42,167 nt of DNA, taken from positions 1-42,167 of the forward strand of contig NZ_CADCWA010000168.1 in assembly GCF_902806285.1 (NCBI RefSeq). Direction: 5' to 3'. Numbering within the stretch: position 1 is the stretch's first letter; the number at the start of each line of letters is the position of its first letter. The position numbers were made by a program, and so were the translations under genes. The stretch is from an uncultured Sphingomonas sp. Lineage in GTDB: Bacteria > Pseudomonadota > Alphaproteobacteria > Sphingomonadales > Sphingomonadaceae. The notes beneath the pieces were generated by a model. The model was not told the DNA's origin and ran no database searches. It worked only from the letters and a program-made list of their open reading frames with translations. Positions 14,416 to 28,765 of the stretch are shown here, in pieces.

Positions 14416-14880
14416 GATTCCGAAACCCCTTTGGTCGTCGGGTTCCGAACGTCACGGGCCGCCGGTCCACGGCAAGTTGCCAGATCCTGGCAGCGGGAAT
14501 GCTCCCGACGTGAGTCGATTCTACAAGGGGCAAGAACACCGAAGCTCATGGGGATCAAATCCGCAACGGGCGCATGAAAAGCGGCATCGAGTGCCATGCT
14601 TCTCTGTGATCATGCGACTGGTTGTCTGGCGGATCGGCGGCCAGAATAGCCACCCGGATTTGCACCGGGTCCTTGCGGTTAGTGCGTAGATGGGCGTCTG
14701 CGCGCCCGATTGCAACAGGTTGTTTTACTTTGGCTTGGAAAACCCAATGCGTACCCGCGCTTGCTCATGCGAAGGTTCTCGCCGGTCCGGCCGCCGTGGC
14801 CGACAGCATCCATCGTCTTGGCGCAGCCCGCGCTGGCCCCTCCACCATCCAGCTACGCCGACCTAAGCTGGCCGACGCTC

Positions 14881-25930: not shown

Positions 25931-27874
25931 ATGAACCGCACCCCCGCCGACCGCCCGGAGCACCCCCGGGCGACTGAGCGCTTCAACGAGGATCAGGCGA
26001 CTTACACCGTTCGCGGCAGCGACGCCCCGGACCTGGAGGCGGGCGTGGCGGCGATCCGCAACGTGCTGAAGACCCTGCCGGCGCGACCCGGCGTATACCG
26101 GATGCAGGACGCCAAGGGCGACGTGCTCTACGTCGGCAAGGCGCGTGCGCTCAAGCAGCGGGTTACCAACTACACCCAGGTCGCGCGCCTGTCGAAGCGG
26201 CTGCAGCGGATGGTTGCGCAGACCCGCTCCATGACGGTGGTCACGACCCGCACCGAAGCCGAGGCGCTGCTGCTGGAGGCGCAGCTGATCAAGCGCTTCC
26301 GGCCACCGTACAACGTGCTGTTGCGGGACGATAAGAGCTTCCCGTTCATCCTGCTGCGCGAGGACCACCAGTTCCCGCGGGTGCAGAAGCATCGCGGTGC
26401 GCGGCGGATCAAGGGCCAATATTATGGGCCGTTCGCCAGCGCGGGGTCGGTCACTCGGACGCTTAACGCGCTGCAGAAGCTGTTCCTGCTCAGGAGCTGT
26501 TCCGACAGCTTTTTCCAGAACCGGTCGCGTCCGTGCCTGCTCTACCAGATCCGCCGTTGTTCGGCGCCCTGCGTCCAGCGCATCGAACCGGCTGCGTACG
26601 GTGAGTTGGTCGAGGACGCGAAGAACTTCCTGACCGGCAAGTCGACCAACGTGCAGGCGCGCCTCAGCAAGCTGATGGCGGAGGCGGCTGAGAAGCATGA
26701 TTATGAGCTGGCCGCCGTCTACCGCGACCGGCTGCGGGCGCTGACCTATATCCAGGGCAGCCAGACGGTGCATGCCGAGGGGCTGGGCGACGCCGACATC
26801 TTCGCGCTGGCCTGCAAGGCAGGGCAGATGTGCATCCAGGCGTTCTTCATCCGCGGCGGGCAGAACTGGGGGCACCGCGCCTTCTTTCCGGCGCATACCA
26901 GCGACGTGCCGGAAGCCGATGTTCTCGCAAGCTTTCTGGTCCAGTTCTACGAGGACATGCCGCCGCCCAAGCGCATCCTGGTCGATCGCGATCTGCCCGA
27001 GCCGGAGCTGATCGCGGAAGCGCTTTCGGAGCGGGCCGAGCGCAAGGTGCTGATCGAGCGGCCGCAGCGCGGCGACCGGCGCAAGCTGATGGAGCAGGCG
27101 ACCCGCAACGCGGAGGAAGCGCTCGAGCGGCGCATGGCGGAGAGCACCACCCAGGGCAAGCTGCTGCGCGAGCTCGCCGACACCTTCGAGCTGCCGGACG
27201 TGCCCAAGCGGATCGAGGTCTACGACAACAGCCACATCATGGGCACCAATGCGACCGGCGCGATGATCGTCGCCGGCCCGGAGGGCTTCCGCAAGAACAG
27301 CTACCGCAAGTTCAACATCAAGAGCGGGATCACTCCGGGCGACGACTTCGGGATGATGAAGGAGGTGCTGGAACGGCGCTTCGCCCGGCTGGAGAAGGAG
27401 GACCCGGACCGGCAGAGCGGCGAGTGGCCGGACCTGCTGCTGATCGACGGCGGCCGCGGTCAGCTCAATGCGGTGATGGAGATAATGGAAGACGCCGGGG
27501 TCCACGACGTGCCGGTGGTCGGCGTGGCCAAGGGGCCCGACCGCAATGCCGGGCGCGAGGTGTTCCACTTGCCGAACGGGCGCGAGGTGACGTTTCCGCC
27601 GAACAACGCGCTGCTGTTCTACCTGCAGCGGCTGCGTGACGAGGCCCATCGCTTCGCCATCGGCACCCACCGGGCGAAGCGGGCCAAGAGCCTGACGACC
27701 TCGACGCTGGACGAGGTTCCGGGGATCGGTCCCAATCGCAAGCGGGCGCTGCTGATGCACTTCGGGACCGCGCGGGCGGTCAAGGGCGCGGCGTTGGAAG
27801 ACCTCGAGCGGGCGCCGGGGATCAGCAAGGGAACGGCGCGGCAGCTTTACGACTATTTCCATCCTAATGGGTGA
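25931..27874 (+). CDS. uvrC: Excinuclease ABC subunit C
   Basis: PARPGVYRMQDAKGDVLYVGKARALKQRVTNY, PFASAGSVTRTLNALQKLFLLRSCSD, RIEVYDNSHIMGTNATGAMIV, LLIDGGRGQLNAV, HhH C-terminus. Confidence 0.97.
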   Translation: MNRTPADRPEHPRATERFNEDQATYTVRGSDAPDLEAGVAAIRNVLKTLPARPGVYRMQDAKGDVLYVGKARALKQRVTNYTQVARLSKRLQRMVAQTRSMTVVTTRTEAEALLLEAQLIKRFRPPYNVLLRDDKSFPFILLREDHQFPRVQKHRGARRIKGQYYGPFASAGSVTRTLNALQKLFLLRSCSDSFFQNRSRPCLLYQIRRCSAPCVQRIEPAAYGELVEDAKNFLTGKSTNVQARLSKLMAEAAEKHDYELAAVYRDRLRALTYIQGSQTVHAEGLGDADIFALACKAGQMCIQAFFIRGGQNWGHRAFFPAHTSDVPEADVLASFLVQFYEDMPPPKRILVDRDLPEPELIAEALSERAERKVLIERPQRGDRRKLMEQATRNAEEALERRMAESTTQGKLLRELADTFELPDVPKRIEVYDNSHIMGTNATGAMIVAGPEGFRKNSYRKFNIKSGITPGDDFGMMKEVLERRFARLEKEDPDRQSGEWPDLLLIDGGRGQLNAVMEIMEDAGVHDVPVVGVAKGPDRNAGREVFHLPNGREVTFPPNNALLFYLQRLRDEAHRFAIGTHRAKRAKSLTTSTLDEVPGIGPNRKRALLMHFGTARAVKGAALEDLERAPGISKGTARQLYDYFHPNG

Positions 27875-27885
27875 GGGCTGCGAGG

Positions 27886-28023
27886 ACCTCCCTGCCGCGC
27901 AGCGGTGGGGAGGGGGACCGCCAAGCGCGGCTTGGTGGTGGAGGGGCCTGCTGCGGTCGGCGTTGGCCCCTCCACCATGCTTCGCATGGTCCCCCTCCCC
28001 ACCGGCTTTGCCGGCAGGGAGGT
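27886..28023. repeat. ~138-bp nested inverted-repeat element in the uvrC-recO gap
   Basis: Exact complementary arms: 27886-27897/28012-28023 (12 bp), 27903-27919/27988-28004 (17 bp), 27936-27948/27965-27977 (13 bp); local hairpin ccaagc-gcg-gcttgg (27921-27935) opposite tgc-ttc-gca (27978-27986). Confidence 0.93.
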
Positions 28024-28027
28024 TCTG

Positions 28028-28765
28028 ATGAGGCTGACCAGTCCCGCCATCGTCCTCGGGCTCCGGGCGCACGGCGAACATGGCGCGGTGGTGCGGCTGC
28101 TGACGCCCGAGCACGGGCTTGTTGCCGCCTATGTCCGCGGCGCGCGGGGGCGGCGGATGCGGCCGGTGCTGATCGCGGGCAACCTGGTCGAGGCACAGCT
28201 CGCCTCCCGCACGGACACCCAATTACCGCAGGCGACCGTGGAGCTGACCCACAGCCGCGGGTCCTTGTTGGGGGAGCCGTTGCCGGCTGCGGCGATCGAG
28301 TGGATCGCCGCGCTGACGGCCGCCGCGCTGCCCGAACAGCAGCCCTACCGCCACATCTACTCCGGCCTGGCAGGACTGCTCGACGCGATCGAGGCCGCCC
28401 CGGCCGCGGCAGGCTGGGCGGCGGCGCTGGTGCGGTTCGAGCTGCTGCTGTTGGCTGAGCTGGGCTTCGGCCTGGACCTGAGCGAATGCGCCGCGAGCGG
28501 GCGCACAGACCAGCTGGTCGCTGTCAGCCCGCGGTCGGGCCGGGCGGTCAGCGCTGCGGAGGCGGAGCCCTATGCGGGCCGGCTGCTGCCGCTGCCCGCG
28601 TTTGTACTCACCGGAGCGCCGGCGAGCTGGGCCGATACGCTGGACGGACTGGCGCTGTCCGGGCACTTCCTGGCGCGCGACGTGCTGACGGACCGGACGG
28701 AGCCGCTCCTGGATGCTCGCGCCCGACTGCTTGACCGCTTGCGTCGGGCGGCCGGGCTGGCCTAG
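28028..28765 (+). CDS. recO: DNA repair protein RecO
   Basis: [58 protein letters not shown]...; the longer ORF from 27905 runs through the repeat. Confidence 0.92.

Follow-up and report, generated by a model that had tools for sequence, protein, structure and literature searches.

A palindromic insertion between uvrC and recO of an uncultured Sphingomonas, probably a nuclease-less member of a DUF559-bearing mobile-repeat family

The window analysed here, a stretch of 42,167 nucleotides from an uncultured Sphingomonas sp., carries uvrC and recO on its forward strand, separated by 153 nt between the uvrC stop codon, which ends at 27874, and the recO ATG at 28028. An earlier note on this DNA had described the gap as a large hairpin built from three exactly complementary arm pairs, and all three are indeed exact: 12 bp (27886-27897/28012-28023), 17 bp (27903-27919/27988-28004) and 13 bp (27936-27948/27965-27977). 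The segment 27870-28040 folds with a minimum free energy of -131.3 kcal/mol, compared with -86.8 +/- 4.5 kcal/mol for dinucleotide shuffles (z = -9.94; 0 of 200 as low), and the palindrome itself extends over 27883-28026. The opposed mini-hairpins that had been noticed within it, at 27917-27939 and 27974-27990, are likewise present. The features of the locus are as follows.

25931..27874, + strand: uvrC, whose ancestral stop codon overlapped the recO start
27883..28026, no strand: the whole palindromic element, 144 bp, AGGACCTCCC...GGGAGGTTCT, with limits drawn from other copies and from the empty sites of relatives
27887..27946, + strand: left half-unit, comprising the outer arm CCTCCC, HP1, GGGGAGGGGGACC, HP2 and GGTGGAGGGG (covariance model 70.5 bits, E 1.7e-13)
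27887..27913, + strand: HP1, local hairpin of the left half (stem pairing and compensatory changes among copies)
27917..27939, + strand: HP2, local hairpin of the left half, ACC...GGT (stem pairing above that of shuffled partners)
27949..27964, no strand: unconserved centre, the place of a DUF559 gene of about 345 bp in other family members
27967..28022, - strand: right half-unit, an inverted copy of the left unit (covariance model 64 bits, E 5.5e-12)
27974..27990, - strand: HP3, equivalent to HP2 of the right half (sequence and stem pairing among copies)
27994..28022, - strand: HP4, equivalent to HP1 of the right half, with its 3' arm on the + strand forming the Shine-Dalgarno sequence
28017..28022, + strand: GGGAGG, terminal arm and predicted recO Shine-Dalgarno sequence (from sequence, and from the same placement before murF, acpS and other genes)
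28028..28765, + strand: recO, 245 aa, ATG start (open reading frame and orthologue alignment)

The ATG at 28028 is the correct start of recO, because RecO orthologues align from this position. As had been pointed out, the element is open in frame with recO: the longest recO call (27905-28765, + strand) begins at a GTG within the element and crosses it, adding 41 spurious residues to the 245-residue protein. The proposed Shine-Dalgarno sequence does lie ahead of recO, but its spacing to the ATG is 5 nt, the 4 nt given previously having been counted from the end of the arm. Outside uvrC, the gap holds no Shine-Dalgarno sequence other than this GGGAGG, which is the only plausible one for recO and very probably the one in use.

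The palindrome is a copy of a dispersed, covarying family of the Sphingomonadaceae and not a device specific to recO. A search of its own genome (an assembly of 2.52 Mb in 203 contigs, 87% complete) with 27880-28030 retrieved about ten loci, and a covariance model of the half-unit found 13 matches there, 80 in G031, at least 149 in G179, at least 144 in G242 and a single one in G014. Further copies, whose existence the earlier note had left to be checked, are thus present both in the own genome and in related ones: 29 of 61 same-genus genomes (own included) have matches, as do 21 of 121 genomes and 10 of 46 genera across the order. Plasmids of Sphingomonas, Sphingobium and Novosphingobium also bear the repeat, with no annotated feature beneath any of these plasmid matches, and the phages searched gave one 34-bp match only. 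Nothing in Rfam 15 matched 27800-28100 at the gathering score, only microRNA-like chance matches appearing below threshold, which rules out a known Rfam family as the identity of the element. Elsewhere in the window, a sul1 RNA motif (RF03058) lies at 14620-14675 on the - strand, with a score of 78 bits, well over the gathering score.

Copies of the element follow the layout CCTCCC-HP1-GGGGAGGGGGACC-HP2-GGTGGAGGGG-centre-CCCCTCCACC-HP3-GGTCCCCCTCCCC-HP4-GGGAGG; some of them carry GGGGAGGTGGCA...TGACGGAGGGG as an alternative module. The conserved covarying structure is a pair of adjacent local hairpins in each half. Among 112 distinct HP1 sequences, 98.3% of the stem cells are paired, with compensatory changes, and among 89 distinct HP2 sequences the value is 96.2%, against 82.1% when the partners are shuffled; G-C, C-G, A-T and T-A all occur at variable stem positions of both hairpins. 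Covariation, by which the earlier note had proposed to judge the structure, is therefore strong across element copies. The 138-bp long-range hairpin results from the two halves being inverted copies; as the conserved unit it was replaced by the local hairpins, since mosaic copies mix the GGGGAGGGGGACC and GGGGAGGTGGCA modules and DUF559-bearing members space the halves about 350 bp apart. Read from the outer end of a half towards the centre, the stems contain 145 cells with a G.T wobble and 21 with an A.C mismatch. Because the halves are inverted, the strand that folds better is a different one at each end, an asymmetry suggesting that selection has acted on the DNA ends in folded form and not on a single mRNA. 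Three composite copies of the own genome (L003, L004 and L008, on C181, C86 and C14, respectively) contain a second, nested hairpin (AACAGGT...GACATGACTGAGACTGTCC...ACCTGTT) in one half, which apparently belongs to another repeat family.

In the closest relatives (G008, L061; identity over the segments compared, 98.7% for uvrC and 93.8% for recO) the two genes overlap by 4 nt (ATGA) and are free of the element, as they are at L062 and L090; in the own genome the element parts the uvrC TGA from the recO ATG, both signals being kept. Because the closest relatives display this overlap, the uvrC-recO element is viewed as a recent insertion. Two other genomes, G031 (L036) and G021 (L059), also have an element at this position, with GGGAGG or GGTAGG ahead of recO, and their RecO proteins are more distant than those of the element-free relatives. 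Independent insertion is the simpler reading of these two cases, for which ancestral presence followed by losses may be an alternative. At two further sites of the own genome, which from our own reading of the protein sequences we take to be murE-murF and pdxJ-acpS, the element sits where element-free relatives overlap by GTGA or ATGA. A DUF559-bearing element of Sphingomonas parapaucimobilis lies between the transhydrogenase genes pntA and pntB (...GCATGA/TCCTCCCC...GGGGAGGAATAAG/ATG), a filled site only, which is consistent with a split stop/start overlap. Target-site duplications showed no excess over shuffles among 55 elements, and a single 5-bp repeat accompanies the pdxJ-acpS insertion. 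With its 144 bp, its CCTCCC/GGGAGG terminal inverted repeats and the lack of a transposase gene, the element has the form of a MITE, and its multiple copies, together with the filled and empty sites in relatives, attest to its mobility.

While the window copy is intergenic, other members of the family have entered protein genes in frame. The UvrC gene at L083 (254-2320), from a Sphingomonadaceae bacterium, contains an element at 1721-1847 that contributes 43 extra residues and no stop codon, and in-frame element inserts occur in IleS at L310 and L336 and probably also at L319. In IleS, the linker that joins the QWF..MD and TLR motifs is an insertion hot spot across species; other repeat-like inserts occupy it at L312, L325, L334 and L338, and the inserts as a whole look like at least two palindromic repeat families. 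The Rickettsia palindromic elements (RPE), likewise from Alphaproteobacteria, also interrupt conserved proteins in frame. The inserts in UvrC and IleS liken the present family to them by insertion behaviour; unlike RPE, the sphingomonad copies are mostly intergenic and linked to DUF559.

This link emerges from the spacing of the half-units, which often face each other at roughly 335-375 bp, the intervening space encoding DUF559 (PF04480) in a gene of about 345 bp (about 105 aa) that scores above the Pfam cut-off. To our knowledge, DUF559 is not known as a transposase. In 35 of the 75 DUF559 loci from the same genus, the gene has an inward-facing half-unit on each side; half-units in the wrong orientation were seen at 1 or 2 of these loci, and control flanks 470-640 bp out from the 75 had none on either side. 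The flanked loci correspond to the lower-scoring DUF559 group, in a nearly clean split, and the own genome has one of them, a diverged copy (L250, G000:C50:21629-21940). Flanked genes are intact over the domain in 33 of 35 cases, with dN/dS values of 0.05-0.36 in most pairs compared, and residues E11, D39, E50, D52 and H56 are invariant in 11 copies. Among solved structures, 3hrl comes nearest (E 1e-23), followed by 3r3p, a mobile-intron nuclease (E 4e-4), and DUF559 is predicted from its sequence to be a Vsr-like PD-(D/E)XK nuclease. Such nucleases and homing endonucleases (PDB 3hrl, 3r3p; Caulobacter VsrA, PMC12907096) have in common with it the domain, conserved acidic residues and one mobile-intron relative, but the sphingomonad gene differs in being framed by hairpin repeats, copies of which are found without the gene as well. 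Over 60 genomes, elements and DUF559 tend to be present together (odds ratio 13, Fisher p 2e-5, uncorrected for the tree), the discordant cases being seven genomes with elements and no DUF559 and six with DUF559 and no elements. DUF559-bearing elements end in the same way as the 144-bp element, which, because the same inverted half-units bound DUF559 genes, is interpreted as their nuclease-less, MITE-like form. In three species, DUF559-bearing elements (L246 in G031, L269 in G034 and L272 in G093) precede a biotin-carboxylase-like gene (LLIANRGE), apparently at the same site.

The segment 27883-28026 thus probably belongs to a DUF559-bearing mobile-repeat family of sphingomonads, as a non-autonomous, MITE-like member that inserted recently, split the uvrC/recO overlap and supplied the recO Shine-Dalgarno sequence. 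The element would consist of two inverted copies of a half-unit, each with two adjacent hairpins, which in the larger form would enclose the gene for the Vsr-like nuclease; both the larger and the nuclease-less forms are most likely moved by DUF559, acting on their folded ends. As judged from the empty sites, insertion would have divided the 4-nt stop/start overlap with preservation of both signals, and would have left the terminal GGGAGG in position to serve recO. In an unlikely alternative, DUF559 would be a homing-type nuclease, able to carry the element only to the matching site of a related genome, and another enzyme would disperse it to new sites. The homing nuclease 3r3p is a Vsr-like relative of DUF559, and both uvrC-recO (in three species) and ileS have been occupied repeatedly; on the other hand, the many scattered, non-matching sites per genome, with up to at least 149 half-units, argue against such a homing role.

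The putative contribution of the ends to translation was assessed from 95 outward-facing gene starts found no more than 150 nt from 177 element ends. The distance past GGGAGG is no more than 15 nt for 40 of these starts and 3-10 nt for 32; start positions are individually approximate, since genes were called by ORF length and codon-position GC. Compact genomes explain part of this fit, which may only mirror purifying selection within them. With GGGAGG facing outward at both ends, the element would be able to sit either way round between co-transcribed genes and still leave the gene behind it expressed. In a second alternative, quite unlikely in our view, the hairpin is a translational switch specific to recO, hiding its Shine-Dalgarno sequence until a signal (temperature, a helicase, the ribosome or a protein) opens it. 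The predicted cost of opening this sequence, 18.3 kcal/mol here and 16.2 and 17.0 kcal/mol at two other filled uvrC-recO sites, compared with 1.1-6.3 kcal/mol at five empty sites of element-free relatives, is compatible with such a role; the right half alone has a predicted cost of 8.8 kcal/mol. Since the sequence is by this prediction thermodynamically buried, recO output has probably been altered. However, the insertion is recent and missing at recO in the closest relatives, and the same element precedes murF, acpS and many unrelated genes. The excess of G.T over A.C also argues against selection at the mRNA level, as one transcript cannot satisfy the wobble bias of two oppositely oriented halves. 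A generic portable ribosome-binding site, partly buried by prediction, fits better than a recO regulator.

An RNA-level element retained by selection in operons, whether an RNase III processing site, a transcription attenuator or a terminator, is very doubtful: the fold is very stable, some operons hold the element co-directionally and Correia/NEMIS elements work at the RNA level (PMC2229807), yet copies occur on both strands and in both orientations, and at convergent sites too, no Rfam family matches at the gathering score and the wobble asymmetry indicates the own strand of each end, not a single transcript.

The earlier note had also considered a MITE- or REP-like origin, of which the first part stands, given the other copies, the empty sites, the compensatory variation and the only plausible Shine-Dalgarno sequence of recO inside the element, while a strict REP identity does not, there being neither RAYT nor GTAG. 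In common with bacterial MITEs (Correia/NEMIS, ERIC, RUP, YPAL; PMC2229807, PMC10969869), the element falls in the range of 100-200 bp, has terminal inverted repeats and a stable fold, is gene-less and lies between genes, at times open in frame. Unlike them, the larger sphingomonad form encodes DUF559 and no known transposase, target-site duplications are not above chance and the ends bring an outward Shine-Dalgarno sequence that replaces the native one; a term search of the two articles cited found no mention of a ribosome-binding site or Shine-Dalgarno sequence. REP/BIME sequences and their RAYT (REP-associated tyrosine transposase; PMC2817692, PMC3116915) offer a further parallel in their short covarying hairpins, often in inverted pairs, intergenic and in many copies, and in a single-domain nuclease gene framed by the same repeats; here, however, the nuclease is DUF559 (PD-(D/E)XK, Vsr-like) and not Y1/HuH, and the repeated half-unit, about 50-60 nt long, comprises two hairpins. 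For all this resemblance, it is highly improbable that a RAYT (Y1 tyrosine) transposase moves the repeat with DUF559 as a passenger: Y1_Tnp (PF01797), found in 7 of 41 relatives, is missing from the own genome and from the element-rich complete genomes G020 and G021, which largely rules out RAYT as the partner, the consensus of 56 half-units has no GTAG (or CGTC) tag beside a 20-40-bp palindrome, and the gene enclosed by the ends is DUF559 instead of RAYT. The behaviour of the element thus resembles that of REP-RAYT systems and MITEs, while its enzyme and anatomy appear to differ.

The association of DUF559 with inverted repeats was also evaluated beyond the family, using the longest exact inverted repeat (at least 11 bp) between 200-nt flanks of best-scoring loci, which are not a random sample. 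Such a repeat was present at 14 of 21 best-scoring loci at the class level, compared with 2 of 20 controls, and at 17 of 25 best-scoring loci at the phylum level (Pseudomonadota), compared with 5 of 100 controls (p 9e-8). Where the sphingomonad repeat is missing, most DUF559 genes are accompanied by G-rich inverted repeats of another kind, such as CCCCTCCCGCTTGCGGGAGGGG. A 30-bp inverted repeat flanks a DUF559 gene on a Pseudanabaena plasmid, and none was found in the flanks examined of a Photobacterium gene; there are hints that the association crosses phyla. On cyanobacterial plasmids of Synechocystis and Pseudanabaena (L405, L407), DUF559 adjoins G-rich hairpin repeats of the CCCCTAGCCCCC type.

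We are evenly divided on a broader proposal, according to which DUF559 nucleases drive a widespread, undescribed mobile class in which a tiny Vsr-like PD-(D/E)XK gene lies inside inverted G-rich hairpin repeats and nuclease-less derivatives are dispersed in trans, in other Pseudomonadota and perhaps in cyanobacteria. Such a class would parallel REP-RAYT on an unrelated nuclease fold, with the sphingomonad ends doubling as portable ribosome-binding sites that allow settling in overlapping gene pairs. The open-access literature searched holds no paper describing the sphingomonad repeat or tying DUF559 to repeats and, if proven, the class would be categorically new. The unannotated palindromic repeats of many sphingomonad genomes gain a concrete candidate for their mobilizer, a single-domain Vsr-like nuclease, and many orphan DUF559 genes gain a possible function. 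In-frame inserts in IleS and other essential proteins, as well as spurious N-terminal extensions such as that of recO, are likewise explained by the repeat family. Because the element brings its own Shine-Dalgarno sequence, an operon of overlapping genes can be split and its downstream gene retained.
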